A stretch of 64,000 nucleotides of DNA. Source: Citreicella sp. C3M06. GTDB taxonomy: Bacteria > Pseudomonadota > Alphaproteobacteria > Rhodobacterales > Rhodobacteraceae. Position 1 is the stretch's first letter; each line of letters begins with the position of its first letter. The notes below the pieces were generated by a model. The model was not told the DNA's origin and did not search any database. It saw only the letters and a program-made list of their open reading frames with translations. This document shows, in pieces, positions 32,749-36,523 of the stretch. The position numbers and the translations under genes were made by a program. Location of the stretch: assembly GCF_018860705.1 (NCBI RefSeq), contig NZ_JAHKQA010000091.1, forward strand, positions 1-64,000, in the 5' to 3' direction.

Positions 32749-32840
32749 GGCCGATCCTCCCTTGGCTCTGATCACTGCATACCGAATGGTAAGGAATGGC
32801 GTCTACCCTGCGTGCAAGGACAGCAGTACAGGACGATCAG

Positions 32841-33179
32841 ATGCATCTGACCATTACGCAGGACAGTGACCCGCAAATCATCCGGGTCGACGAAGGGCGG
32901 ATCGATTCCGCCGTTGCCATCCAGTTCAAGGATGCCGTCCGCTCTAGGGTCTCGCCGGACGCATCCCGCGTCGTGCTGGATCTTGGCGAGGTGGATTTCA
33001 TCGATTCGAGCGGTCTGGGCGCCATCGTCGCGGCGATGAAGGCGCTGTCAAAGGATCAGCGGCTGGATCTGGCGGCGCTGAATCCGATGGTCGACAAGGT
33101 GTTTCGCCTGACCCGCATGGACACGATCTTTGTTATCCACGAATCCGTCGACGCCGCGAAGAGCGACGGCGACCGCTGA
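32841..33179 (+). CDS. STAS-domain anti-sigma factor antagonist
   Basis: 112 residues, a single STAS domain of RsbV/SpoIIAA type. The regulatory serine lies in VDFIDSSGLGAIV (Ser56/57). In partner switching, the unphosphorylated form sequesters the serine-kinase anti-sigma factor. AGGAC precedes ATG 32841. The cognate kinase follows 25 bp downstream. No sigma factor or PP2C phosphatase gene is adjacent. Confidence 0.9.
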   Translation: MHLTITQDSDPQIIRVDEGRIDSAVAIQFKDAVRSRVSPDASRVVLDLGEVDFIDSSGLGAIVAAMKALSKDQRLDLAALNPMVDKVFRLTRMDTIFVIHESVDAAKSDGDR

Positions 33180-33204: not shown

Positions 33205-33690
33205 ATGGCAGACGTGCCAGAGCCCGCTGCACCGCTCGTTCTTCAGACCGAGCTTGGCAGTACACCGCAGGATGTTCGCGCCGTGCTGGCGCTTGTACGC
33301 ATGGAACTGACGGCGCTTGGCTGGGGCGACACCCCCATCGGGGCGGTCGAGCTGGTGCTGGCGGAGGCGCTGAACAATATCGTCGAACATGCCTGCGCAG
33401 AGCGCAGCGACGGGTGCATCGCTTTGGCGCTGCATGCAGATGCACTTTGCGCGGAACTGACCTTGCGCGATGATGGCCATGCGATGCCAGACGGGGGGCT
33501 GCCACCGGGTCGCCTTGCCTTGCCCGACCGGCGGCAGGACCTGCCTGAGGGCGGCTTTGGCTGGTACCTGATCCGCAAACTGTCCGAACGGCTACACTAT
33601 GCGCGCGAGGAGGGCGGCAATCGGCTCGACATCCTGATCTGCCGCGCGGATCACGAGGCGCCGCCCGGAACAGGCGGTACGGCGCGCTGA
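33205..33690 (+). CDS. RsbW/SpoIIAB-type serine kinase anti-sigma factor
   Basis: 161 residues, a single GHKL ATPase domain (HATPase_c_2). The N box is EALNNIVEHACAE, the G1 region is LRDDGHAMP, and GGFGWYLIRKLS matches the G2 end. Proteins of this type bind a sigma factor and phosphorylate the STAS antagonist. The C-terminal extension after ILICRAD is short and disordered. ATG 33205 is preceded by AAGGAAG. It is the second gene of the two-gene module. Confidence 0.88.
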   Translation: MADVPEPAAPLVLQTELGSTPQDVRAVLALVRMELTALGWGDTPIGAVELVLAEALNNIVEHACAERSDGCIALALHADALCAELTLRDDGHAMPDGGLPPGRLALPDRRQDLPEGGFGWYLIRKLSERLHYAREEGGNRLDILICRADHEAPPGTGGTAR

Positions 33691-33784
33691 ATGCCGCCTC
33701 GGGCGGACAGCCCGGGCGGAGAAGACCTGAAAGCTGCCGCAATCTGATCCTACTGGTGCCCGATTGCACCCGGATAAAGAGGAT

Positions 33785-33903
33785 GTAGCTGCACTAAGCT
33801 TCCCTCGGCGTCGCGTGTTTTTCAGCCCCCACTCAGCGCACGACGTCGAGGTATCTTCAAATCAGGCGGTCCTGTTACCCCGTGGCCTTTCGGCGCGGGT
33901 TTT
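33785..33903 (+). ncRNA. Candidate structured RNA, unit 1
   Basis: A 13-position stem (33803-33815 with 33839-33851, twelve pairs) encloses a loop containing CAGCCCCCACTCAG. A TCTTCAAATC stretch and a weaker hairpin ending GCGCGGG-TTTT (to 33903) follow. Its 5' end is not defined. It could be the tail of the anti-sigma mRNA or start near a GATAAA box at 33773. Confidence 0.5.
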
Positions 33904-33943
33904 GTCTGTTTGGAGGGCTGGCTTCGAGCCGCGCGTTGCGTCA

Positions 33944-33969
33944 TTGCATCGCCGCTGCGTCTTCATAAT
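33944..33969 (+). promoter_or_regulatory. Promoter-like block before unit 2
   Basis: CATAAT at 33964-33969 sits in the highly conserved block, with TTGCAT 14 bp upstream (33944-33949). A weaker TCATTG at 33941 would give a 17 bp spacer. The same elements recur 216 bp later. The short spacing could suit a heat-shock-type sigma factor; this is inference. Confidence 0.45.
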
Positions 33970-33975
33970 TGCGCC

Positions 33976-34119
33976 CGAAAACGCCGCCACAACGAAGGGG
34001 TAGCTGCAATATGCTTCCCTCGGCGTCGCGCCTTTTCAGCCCCCACCCAGTGCGCAGCGCCGAGGTTCTTTCAAATCAGGAATTCCTGCCAGCCCGTGCC
34101 GCTTTCGGCGCGGGTTTTG
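33976..34119 (+). ncRNA. Candidate small RNA, unit 2
   Basis: Predicted ~145 nt RNA. The 13-position stem (34018-34030 with 34053-34065) has 12 pairs and a 22-base loop containing CAGCCCCCACCCAG. The A/U-rich GGTTCTTTCAAATCAGG comes next. Last is a strong terminator: CCCGTGCCG-CTTT-CGGCGCGGG followed by TTTTGTT (34093-34119). The order hairpin, Hfq-like site, terminator is typical of trans-acting sRNAs. No known Rfam family is recognised. Confidence 0.6.
34093..34118 (+). terminator. Rho-independent terminator of repeat unit 2
   Basis: Nine-base stem with one G-T pair, CTTT loop, directly followed by TTTT. The equivalent in unit 1 is at about 33879-33903 with a weaker stem. Confidence 0.75.
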
Positions 34120-34159
34120 TTGGTCTGGCAGCGTGGCGTTGACCCTCGGCGTCGCGTCA

Positions 34160-34185
34160 TTGCATCGCCGCTGCGTCATCATAAT
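34160..34185 (+). promoter_or_regulatory. Promoter-like block before unit 3
   Basis: TTGCAT at 34160-34165 and CATAAT at 34180-34185, a copy of the block at 33944-33969. Confidence 0.45.
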
Positions 34186-34191
34186 TCCGCC

Positions 34192-34335
34192 CGAAAGCGC
34201 CGCCACAACGAAGGGGTAGCTGCGATATGCTTCCCTCGGCGCCACGCCGTTTCAAGCCCCCACCCAGAGTGTGGCGTCGAGGTCTTCTTACCCCCCGGCA
34301 TCACAGGCCCGCGCGCCCCTAACAGGGGCGTTCTG
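34192..34335 (+). ncRNA. Candidate small RNA, unit 3
   Basis: The stem here (34234-34247 with 34269-34282) pairs at all 14 positions, although both arms differ from units 1 and 2. The loop again contains AAGCCCCCACCCAG. TCTTCTTA follows, then a different terminator-like hairpin CGCCCCT-AAC-AGGGGCG (34314-34330) and TTCT. The 3' part has diverged, yet a hairpin/terminator ending is kept. Confidence 0.5.
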
Positions 34336-34477: not shown

Positions 34478-35035
34478 ATGTATGGACCCATCGCAGCGTT
34501 AGAATCCTATATTTTCAGCGCCTTGCGCTTCAATGCGCGGGCGGACCGCTCGGAATTCTGGTGGCCGAGCTCTCTCGTCCTTGGGGTGATCACGCTGGCA
34601 GGGCTCGCCGATATCCGCAGCATTGCCGACGCGTTCATTCAGACCGGCCAGCCACCGATGCATGTTCTGGCCTATTGGTCGCCGCTGCTGTGGATTGTGT
34701 TTTTCGTTCCGACCCTGAGCGCGATGGTGCGCCGCCTGCACGATACCGGGCGTTCCGGCTGGTGGCTGCTGGTGCAGATCATTCCGCTGCTCGGGCCGAT
34801 GCTGATCTTCGGATTTCTGCTGATGCCGTCAAAGCCCGAGCCCAACGCCTGGGGCGCGCCGCGCAGCGCCGGCACCGCGAGAAAGGCAAAACCGCGCCGG
34901 GCCGCCGGGCCGCTCGACGCCTATGCCGTGCTGCTTCAGGCCCATGCAGAGCCGTCCCCGGAAGAGGTGGCGCGCCGCAAGGAAGAGGTGCACGACTATT
35001 TCGTTCGCAACGTGTCCCGCAGCGGCGCAGCCTGA
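34478..35035 (+). CDS. DUF805 inner-membrane protein
   Basis: 185 residues. Three or four membrane segments belong to DUF805, with the hallmark MVRRLHDTGRSGWWLL. The final ~60 residues are a soluble basic/acidic tail (DAYAVLLQAHAEPSPEEVARRKEEV) not typical of the core domain. DUF805 proteins are of unknown function. CGGGAGA precedes ATG 34478. The 3' end is followed by an eight-base hairpin (TGAACCGG...CCGGTTCA, 35033-35054) without a U tract. Confidence 0.85.
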   Translation: MYGPIAALESYIFSALRFNARADRSEFWWPSSLVLGVITLAGLADIRSIADAFIQTGQPPMHVLAYWSPLLWIVFFVPTLSAMVRRLHDTGRSGWWLLVQIIPLLGPMLIFGFLLMPSKPEPNAWGAPRSAGTARKAKPRRAAGPLDAYAVLLQAHAEPSPEEVARRKEEVHDYFVRNVSRSGAA

Positions 35036-35086: not shown

Positions 35087-36457
35087 TTAGTAGCTGTAGG
35101 CCGCGTAGATCCGGCCAAGATCGCCGTTCCAGTCGCCGTGGTAATGGTCGAGCATCTCGTCGGCGAGCACCTTGCCGGAATCGATGCTTTCCTTCAGCGC
35201 GTTGAGGAAATGGGTCTCATCCGGCAGCAGGCCGCCTGCGCCGGAACGGGCGCGGGCCTTCAGGCCGGCTTCGGCGATGTCGATGCAGCGCGCGGCAAGA
35301 TCTTGCATGGAGATGCCCTCGACCACCGCGTCCAGCGCCTGATCGGCGGCAGCGACGCGCAGCGCCTCGCGGGTCGGCGCATCCCAGCCCTTGACCAGAT
35401 CATAGGCCGCATCCAGCGCAGAGCTGTCATAGGTCAGCCCGACCCAGAAGGCGGGCAGGGCGCACAGACGCCGCCACGGGCCGCCATCGGCGCCGCGCAT
35501 TTCGATGAATTTCTTCAGCCGCGCCTCGGGGAAGATCGTGGTGAGATGGTCGGCCCAATCGGACAGGGTCGGCACCTCGCCGGGCAGTGCAGGCAGGCGG
35601 CCTTTCATGAAATCCCGAAAGGATTGCCCCAGCGCGTCGATATACTTGCCGTCGCGGTAGACGAAATACATCGGCACATCGAGCGCGTAATCGACATAAT
35701 GTTCAAAGCCGAAACCCTCGTCGAAGACGAAGGGCAGCATGCCGGTGCGGTCCGCATCAAGATGCCGCCAGACGTAGCTGCGATAGCTCTTCATGCCGTT
35801 CGGCTTGCCCTCGAAGAACGGCGAATTGGCGAACAGCGCCGTCGCCACCGGCTGCAATGCCAGCGCCACGCGCATTTTCTTGACCATGTCGGCCTCGGAG
35901 CCGAAATCGAGGTTCACCTGCACCGTGCAGGTGCGCCGCATCATGGTCTTGCCGGAGGTGCCGACGAGGCCCATGTAGCTGTCCATCAGCTTGTAGCGGC
36001 CCTTGGGCATCAGCGGCACGTCATCGTGCAGCCATTCGGGCGCGGCGCCAAGGCCGATGAAGCCGACGCCGATCGCATCCGAGATGCTCTTGACCTCGCG
36101 CAGGTGCTCGTTCACCTCGTCGCAGGTCTGGTGGATGGTTTCCAGCGGGGCGCCCGACAGTTCCAGCGCGCCGCCCGGCTCGAGGCTGACATTGGCGCCA
36201 TCCTTGGTCAGGCCGATCAGGTGGCCGGCTTCTTCGACGGGGGCCCAGCCATAGCGGGTCTGAAGCCCTTCGAGCACGGCGCGGATAGAACGCGGCCCAT
36301 CATAGGGCAGGGGTTCGTGGGTGTCGGTGAGATAGCCGAATTTCTCGTGCTCGGTGCCGATGCGCCAGTCGCTCTCGGGCTTGCAGCCCGCTTCGAGATA
36401 TTCCGCCAGCTGTGTCTGGCTTTCGATCGGCCCGCCGCCGGATTGAGGAATGGACAT
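35087..36457 (-). CDS. gshA: Glutamate--cysteine ligase, plant/alphaproteobacterial type
   Basis: 456 residues of the GCS2 family. It makes gamma-glutamylcysteine, the first step of glutathione synthesis. Diagnostic blocks are WRIGTEHEKFGY near residue 45, LEPGGALELSGAP, MRRTCTVQVNLDFGSE and EMRGADGGPWRRLCALPAFWVGL. The start at 36457 (MSIPQSGGG) is chosen over one ten codons upstream. No gshB lies nearby. Confidence 0.95.
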   Translation of the reverse strand: MSIPQSGGGPIESQTQLAEYLEAGCKPESDWRIGTEHEKFGYLTDTHEPLPYDGPRSIRAVLEGLQTRYGWAPVEEAGHLIGLTKDGANVSLEPGGALELSGAPLETIHQTCDEVNEHLREVKSISDAIGVGFIGLGAAPEWLHDDVPLMPKGRYKLMDSYMGLVGTSGKTMMRRTCTVQVNLDFGSEADMVKKMRVALALQPVATALFANSPFFEGKPNGMKSYRSYVWRHLDADRTGMLPFVFDEGFGFEHYVDYALDVPMYFVYRDGKYIDALGQSFRDFMKGRLPALPGEVPTLSDWADHLTTIFPEARLKKFIEMRGADGGPWRRLCALPAFWVGLTYDSSALDAAYDLVKGWDAPTREALRVAAADQALDAVVEGISMQDLAARCIDIAEAGLKARARSGAGGLLPDETHFLNALKESIDSGKVLADEMLDHYHGDWNGDLGRIYAAYSY

Positions 36458-36523
36458 GAGGGCGCCTCGCTTTTGGCCGTATCGCATTTGTTCGGGCAGG
36501 AGTGGGCGGTCCGCCGCTCGATG

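Follow-up and report, generated by a model that had tools for sequence, protein, structure and literature searches.

The Rhodobacteraceae are the family of the marine roseobacters and of the model organism R. sphaeroides. Small RNAs (sRNAs) described for this family and for other Alphaproteobacteria provide the background for the locus analyzed here. The CcsR1-4, or cuckoo, RNAs of R. sphaeroides, an array numbered RSs0680a-d (PMC5036791), carry CCUCCUCCC-type motifs and are described as being transcribed together with ccaF1 (PMC8307010). StsR, the former RSs0827, is reported as an sRNA of 72 nt under the control of RpoHI/RpoHII (PMC8307010), and UpsM (RSs0682) as an sRNA of the dcw leader that is found throughout the Rhodobacteraceae (PMC5089854). 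ChvR of Caulobacter crescentus is described as an 84-nt sRNA that is located by recF, pairs through stem-loops, and is controlled by ChvI (PMC6237742).

The window, a 64,000-nt stretch of DNA from Citreicella sp. C3M06, contains three head-to-tail units that start at positions 33785, 34000, and 34216 (family D1). The start-to-start spacings of 215 and 216 agree with the original prediction of three units of ~215 bp. The core of each unit, as delineated by the sequence, RNAfold, the alignment, and the covariance model, is as follows:

33785 to 33855, + strand: core of RNA unit 1, with P1 at 33787-33800, P2 at 33803-33815/33839-33851, and the loop block at 33825-33836
34000 to 34069, + strand: core of RNA unit 2, with P1 at 34002-34015, P2 at 34018-34030/34053-34065, and the loop block at 34039-34050
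34216 to 34286, + strand: core of RNA unit 3, with P1, P2 at 34234-34247/34269-34282, and the loop block at 34256-34267

A compensated stem and a GCCCCCAC loop are present in all three units. Each stem is found in the sequence where it had been predicted, and RNAfold forms all three on the + strand, with z values of −3.36, −4.10, and −3.18 for units 1 to 3 (−1.48, −3.15, and −0.22 on the − strand). The pair changes that had been proposed among the units are likewise correct by reading of the sequence: position 9 is T-A, T-G, and C-G in units 1 to 3, position 11 is G-C, G-C, and A-T, and position 6 is G-T, G-C, and G-T. Stem position 12 of unit 1 is a C-A mismatch.

A DNA search of this genome and 40 others gave a match in 23 of the 41, all 23 of which belong to the Rhodobacteraceae, and 38 aligned copies from this search were used to build a covariance model. 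In the Citreicella genome, this model recovers exactly the three units at E ≤ 1. A search of other genomes with a covariance model of the units had been proposed as a check, and it finds the RNA in 214 of 295 Rhodobacteraceae genomes (213 of the 294 sampled genera), with one to three matches each; together, these two results argue against a chance array. By our own count, there is one match in 153 genomes, two in 53, and three in 8, with a few of the second matches being weak. In a class-wide draw, the covariance model matches only 4 of 289 genomes, and all four are Rhodobacteraceae. A pattern scan of named genomes returned at least 119 stretches, the titles of which include Ruegeria, Sulfitobacter, Roseovarius, Phaeobacter, Rhodovulum, and Rhodobacter, so the RNA family is one of the Rhodobacteraceae in the broad sense. 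Two records titled Enemella evansiae (L076) and Flavobacteriia (L118) also hold a copy of the RNA; the title of L076, at least, looks mislabelled. As judged from sequence, the three units are a local triplicate of a predicted small RNA family that is specific to the Rhodobacteraceae and has a conserved structure.

This structure is visible in two alignments. In a MAFFT alignment of the 38 copies, which was not fitted to the model, 98.7% of the pair cells are standard, and eight pairs are changed on both sides, compared to 2.1 in shuffles. The second alignment (A4) contains 100 copies from 96 loci and was aligned to the covariance model, so it leans towards the structure; here, 98.6% of the pair cells are standard, and double changes occur at 13 of 18 pairs. 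The 77 double-change cells in A4 compare to 17.0 ± 3.3 in shuffles, with none of 500 shuffles as high, and standard pairing drops to 30–54% in slid controls. The excess of compensatory changes over both shuffles and slid controls is that of a conserved structured RNA, and RNAalifold gives the same structure for A4. The covariation supports the original proposal of a family of structured, non-coding RNAs with a C-rich loop.

Among the 100 copies, three pairs of P1 (AGCU...AGCU type) never vary, and its last, fourth pair is U-G in 50, U-A in 45, G-C in 3, C-G in 1, and broken in 1. At one stem position, G-C and G-U are found in 56 and 43 copies, respectively; such an exchange would disrupt the pair if the opposite strand carried the RNA, which assigns it to the + strand. 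The loop has CCCCCAYCC in all 100 copies, CCCCCACCC in 99, and GCCCCCACCCAG in 96, figures that are inflated in the loop and 5′ stem since many copies were picked by patterns that contain these letters. Even the divergent copies that the model picked up (L065, L066, L195, L196, and L197) retain CCCCCACCC. A further diverged copy is observed on the reverse strand of L016 (1753-1825), alongside a normal copy; its stem is changed on both sides (CCCCGG/CCGGGG), and its loop is GCCCCCGCTCAG. An ATG precedes the stem in only 34 of 100 copies, and the spacing between blocks falls in varying phases (46, 44, and 3 of 93 scored copies), so no reading frame is kept, as the original description of the array as non-coding requires. 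Taken together, the alignments show a conserved core of ~70 nt on the + strand. Its elements are a short hairpin at the 5′ end and a stem of 14 pairs that encloses the nearly invariant (G)CCCCCACCC(AG) loop; a pyrimidine tail poor in G completes it.

A terminator-like hairpin had been proposed to follow each stem. This feature is clear, with a T run, for units 1 and 2, whereas unit 3 has only a short hairpin:

33878 to 33903, + strand: terminator-like hairpin and T run after unit 1 (sequence, RNAfold; absent from the strict scan)
34091 to 34120, + strand: intrinsic-terminator-like hairpin and T-rich tail after unit 2 (strict scan, RNAfold)
34312 to 34331, + strand: 8-bp hairpin with a poor T tail after unit 3 (RNAfold)

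The strict terminator scan of the region gives one site, that of unit 2, compared to 2.4 expected by chance. Across the family, terminator-like hairpins follow 7 of 179 copies (1.6 from shuffles), and two of these seven are in the window. Because such hairpins are rare, in most genomes the RNA must end otherwise or run on. In 174 copies, the first 12 nt past the stem are rich in pyrimidines and poor in G; beyond about 12 nt, in ungapped comparison to 45 nt, no strong column preference is found.

The array lies between an upstream gene pair and a downstream gene, followed by a convergent one:

32796 to 33179, + strand: STAS-domain gene of the anti-sigma-factor antagonist type, first of the upstream pair (Pfam STAS, 1.8e-15; NCBIfam TIGR00377 above cut-off)
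33205 to 33690, + strand: HATPase_c_2 gene, RsbW-like (Pfam, 9.6e-21; NCBIfam RsbW models below their cut-offs)
34478 to 35035, + strand: DUF805 gene, downstream of the array (also in eight other same-genus loci)
35087 to 36487, − strand: glutamate-cysteine ligase gene (gshA, GCS2), convergent, downstream (18 of 20 same-genus genomes)

The neighborhood was surveyed in 184 distinct copies, which comprise the best hits and the matches listed in the pattern scan and are thus not a random sample. A HATPase gene is found within 900 nt upstream of 168 of them, and eight of the other 16 have too little flank. This synteny supports the earlier placement of the RNA next to an anti-sigma-type module: the STAS/HATPase pair is the usual upstream neighbor of the RNA, although it is only a putative target. 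Downstream, the ggt gene (gamma-glutamyltransferase) starts within 600 nt of 131 of the 184 copies, at a median of 147 nt from the GTAGC motif (10–90%: 134–200). It is absent in this range despite at least 500 nt of flank in 47 copies, one of which has ggt at 854 nt, and six copies have too little flank. In the genus of the window, 18 of 20 genomes (32 copies) have gshA and no ggt downstream, and a DUF805 gene is recognised in 9 of these 18 loci; the other two (G008 and G016; four copies) have ggt.

The frequency of ggt and its distance, together with the lack of a terminator after most copies, could be read as the signs of a cis-acting 5′ leader of the downstream gene, which would mostly be ggt. 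Such a role is improbable given the 47 copies without ggt, among them the 32 of the window genus, and the upstream HATPase gene, which is the commoner neighbor. In addition, the tandem copies are separated by terminator hairpins, and the strong column preferences end ~12 nt past the stem. The tandem arrangement itself might instead point to a DNA-level or mobile repeat (REP/MITE-like) devoid of RNA function, a reading that is scarcely credible: the G-U covariation is strand-specific, the copies sit mostly at the one locus near HATPase with one to three matches per genome, and a blastn search of plasmids and phages with the 86-nt copy of one relative gave no match.

The array in the window resembles the CcsR array of the same bacterial family in its tandem hairpins and C-rich loops, properties expected as well of a CcsR/cuckoo-type anti-Shine-Dalgarno sRNA whose loop has diverged. 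In contrast to CcsR, the RNA in the window has a GCCCCCACCCAG loop rather than one of the CUCCUCCC type, has upstream repeats of its own, and adjoins STAS/HATPase. The CcsR motif CCTCCTCCC occurs once in the window, which is the chance level. Rather than being an array behind ccaF1/DUF1127, the array is flanked by STAS/HATPase and DUF805/gshA, and most relatives have STAS/HATPase and ggt. Both elements are present in the R. sphaeroides-like genome G086, at different places: a CcsR-type array with 14 CCTCCTCCC motifs lies at 691.7-692.4 kb of C4 (L222 5718-6439), and the copy of the RNA is at G086:C4:87175-87244. The 14 motifs in this array are more than the four CcsR RNAs would give at two each. 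The loop also lacks CCUCC and pairs weakly with sites of the GGAGG type (−5.0 to −6.2 kcal/mol, compared to −10.9 to −11.7 kcal/mol for a CcsR-type loop). These pairing energies do not fit an anti-Shine-Dalgarno model, which was rejected, and the suggestion that the C-rich loop perhaps binds G-rich ribosome sites is not supported. The original prediction did not recognise the array as a member of the CcsR/cuckoo family, and the two are distinct; kinship with CcsR through a diverged loop is highly improbable.

StsR is described as a stress sRNA of the Rhodobacteraceae (PMC8307010), and it is short and of similar length to the RNA in the window, which could be an ortholog of this UpsM-targeting sRNA. 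The chromosomal positions in G086 argue against this identity. The CcsR array (RSs0680) and mraZ/UpsM (RSs0682) lie side by side at 692-695 kb, from which the RSs numbers appear to follow the chromosome; RSs0827 should therefore lie further on, and the RNA copy is at 87 kb. The numbering rule is not a simple one, in that Pos19 (RSs0019) is placed on chromosome 2 (PMC5036791). By its chromosomal place, as deduced from the RSs numbers, the RNA is probably not StsR. The promoter of RpoHI/RpoHII is given as TTG at −35 and TAT at −12, as for rsp_0557 (PMC10673084), and inspection by eye upstream of the G086 copy, with GTAGC as the start, revealed no such boxes. Finally, pairing of the loop region with the UpsM/dcw leader was compared to simple shuffles in six pairings. 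In G086, the pairing is not better than shuffled (−21.6 compared to −24.0 ± 3.0), whereas in G209 it is 2.3 sd better (−26.5 compared to −20.8 ± 2.5), as an ortholog of StsR might show; the remaining four are within 1.3 sd. Overall, orthology with StsR is very unlikely. The RNA also resembles UpsM in its distribution throughout the Rhodobacteraceae and in the possession of a conserved C-rich block (four of four genomes), but UpsM is derived from a 5′-UTR and differs in locus and sequence. Within the dcw leader (the UpsM region; L215 1768-1781, or C64:65768 in the Citreicella genome, 1.8 kb past the window end), CATCCCCCCAGGTG is observed in G000, G086, G157, and G209, and by eye it resembles the C-rich loop of the RNA.

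Each unit in the window is preceded by a region of repeats:

33725 to 33779, + strand: upstream region of unit 1, with 11-bp-phased repeats, CC at three of four phased positions, and a −10-like GGATAAAG
33940 to 33994, + strand: upstream repeat region of unit 2, with CC at two of four phased positions and CCACAACG at the −10 place
34156 to 34210, + strand: upstream repeat region of unit 3, with CC at two of four phased positions and CCACAACG at the −10 place

These repeats are degenerate relative to the pattern that emerges when 181 upstream regions are aligned at GTAGC. In this alignment, CC is found at −59, −48, −37, and −26 (frequencies of 0.46, 0.72, 0.35, and 0.63, respectively), with A/T after each, and positions −12 to −8 hold a box rich in A. 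Of the four repeats, three keep the G of GCC in only about 40–55% of cases, and the fourth rarely has it. For 161 non-redundant upstream regions, the period-11 statistic is 0.542, compared to 0.165 ± 0.009 for rotated sequences; four phased CC are present in 10, three in 62, two in 46, one in 31, and none in 12, such that 118 of the 161 have at least two. A nearly invariant block with CATAAT had been noted before units 2 and 3. This block is indeed part of the upstream repeat region, but its CATAAT, at −36 to −31 relative to GTAGC, is too distant upstream to serve as a −10 box. A scan for promoters of the sigma-70 type found none in the array region.

Direct repeats are described, for CenR, as typical of OmpR-family regulators (PMC9275681). 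Combined with the −10-like box, the phased repeats lead us to infer a promoter of the response-regulator-driven type; that is, the pattern suggests a promoter driven by an OmpR-type response regulator, with a start near GTAGC. CenR itself was rejected as the regulator because its motif is TGA-N8-TGA (PMC9275681). The motif of Sinorhizobium ChvI, N-GCC-N8-GCC (PMC9731502), has a spacing equal to that of the repeats upstream of the RNA. Despite this fit, ChvI is unsupported as the regulator: the ChvG sensor domain PF13756 is missing from seven of seven Rhodobacteraceae genomes, with a control that matched in Caulobacter, although a ChvG that lacks this domain is conceivable. ChvR is comparable to the RNA in the window as an alphaproteobacterial sRNA whose controller, ChvI, has a Sinorhizobium homolog reported to bind GCC-N8-GCC (PMC9731502). 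It differs in its location by recF and in the absence of PF13756 from the seven genomes, and the likeness is one of description. On this basis, ChvR would be the closest functional analogue. In the 20 same-genus genomes, a strict three-repeat pattern has 46 matches, compared to 7 for a backward control, and only one of the 46 (G016:C33:77462) is at an RNA copy, the matches being mainly to another conserved site. There, three phased 11-bp TTGCCYMATTW repeats are flanked by a CoA-transferase gene on one side and a membrane-protein-like ORF on the other (L220 1501-1533; C35:4769 in the Citreicella genome). This site is kept in the 13 loci inspected and, judged by the matched letters, in 18 of the 20 same-genus genomes, and it may serve a related regulator that recognises GCC repeats.

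With these elements combined, the locus can be read as a Rhodobacteraceae sRNA triplicate with its own response-regulator promoters and trans pairing via the C-rich loop, a reading that has about an even chance of being correct. Each copy would start near GTAGC from its own promoter, in which the 11-bp-phased (G/C)CC repeats would take the place of a −35 box and be occupied by a response regulator of the OmpR/PhoB type. The 3′ end would be the terminator hairpin in units 1 and 2 or else the pyrimidine tail, and the exposed loop would act in trans by pairing with target RNAs at G-rich sites other than the Shine-Dalgarno core. In favor of this reading are the tandem arrangement, in which the copies have upstream repeats of their own, and the terminator hairpins that separate the units in the window.

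The neighboring genes were considered as targets, with a negative outcome. The loop pairs with the starts of the STAS, HATPase, ggt, and DUF805 genes no more strongly than with random windows, and the starts in the top 5% number 5 of 108, 7 of 91, 3 of 84, and 0 of 7, respectively. The pattern CTGGGTGGGG at 2–14 nt before an ATG does not occur in the Citreicella genome; 34 matches are found in 14 of 20 same-genus genomes, compared to 12 for a backward control, and at least two of the 34 are the antisense of the RNA itself. That no mRNA target emerged from the neighbor starts or the before-ATG pattern would fit an RNA whose nearly invariant loop chiefly recognises a protein, or another conserved RNA, and which acts as a sponge or scaffold rather than by pairing with many mRNAs. 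The loop hardly varies (CCCCCACCC in 99 of 100 copies) while the stem changes, and such constancy is stricter than expected of mRNA seeds. No protein candidate is at hand, however, and the partner search covered the neighbor genes, the dcw leader of four genomes, and one pattern, which makes the absence of targets weak evidence. This mode of action is possible but unlikely.

Rfam 15 at the gathering threshold gives no match in the window or in the loci of seven relatives; the best sub-threshold score in the region is CRISPR-DR8, with 17.7 bits against a threshold of 39. The candidate is therefore best regarded as a genuine, family-wide small RNA that is unlisted in Rfam 15. In the open-access papers searched, by words and by core sequences as text, no earlier description of the RNA was found; the papers retrieved with the core sequences do not, by their titles, concern bacterial RNA. 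The main texts of sRNA surveys of Ruegeria pomeroyi (PMC4809877) and Paracoccus denitrificans (PMC5107571), coordinate tables and supplements aside, contain neither ‘glutamyl’ nor ‘anti-sigma’, and the RNA may sit among the unnamed sRNAs of these surveys.

A further, rather unlikely possibility is that the RNA is a widespread Rhodobacteraceae regulator that is driven by a response regulator of the OmpR type and acts as a global sponge, its nearly invariant C-rich loop of 12 nt being dedicated to a single partner, either a protein or one abundant RNA. If true, its role would be comparable to that of 6S or CsrB, with a new recognition code that is possibly shared with the C-rich block of UpsM. 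For the Rhodobacteraceae, the analysis points to an RNA with extreme loop constraint and phased upstream repeats, which is open to testing in laboratory strains and in existing RNA-seq data.
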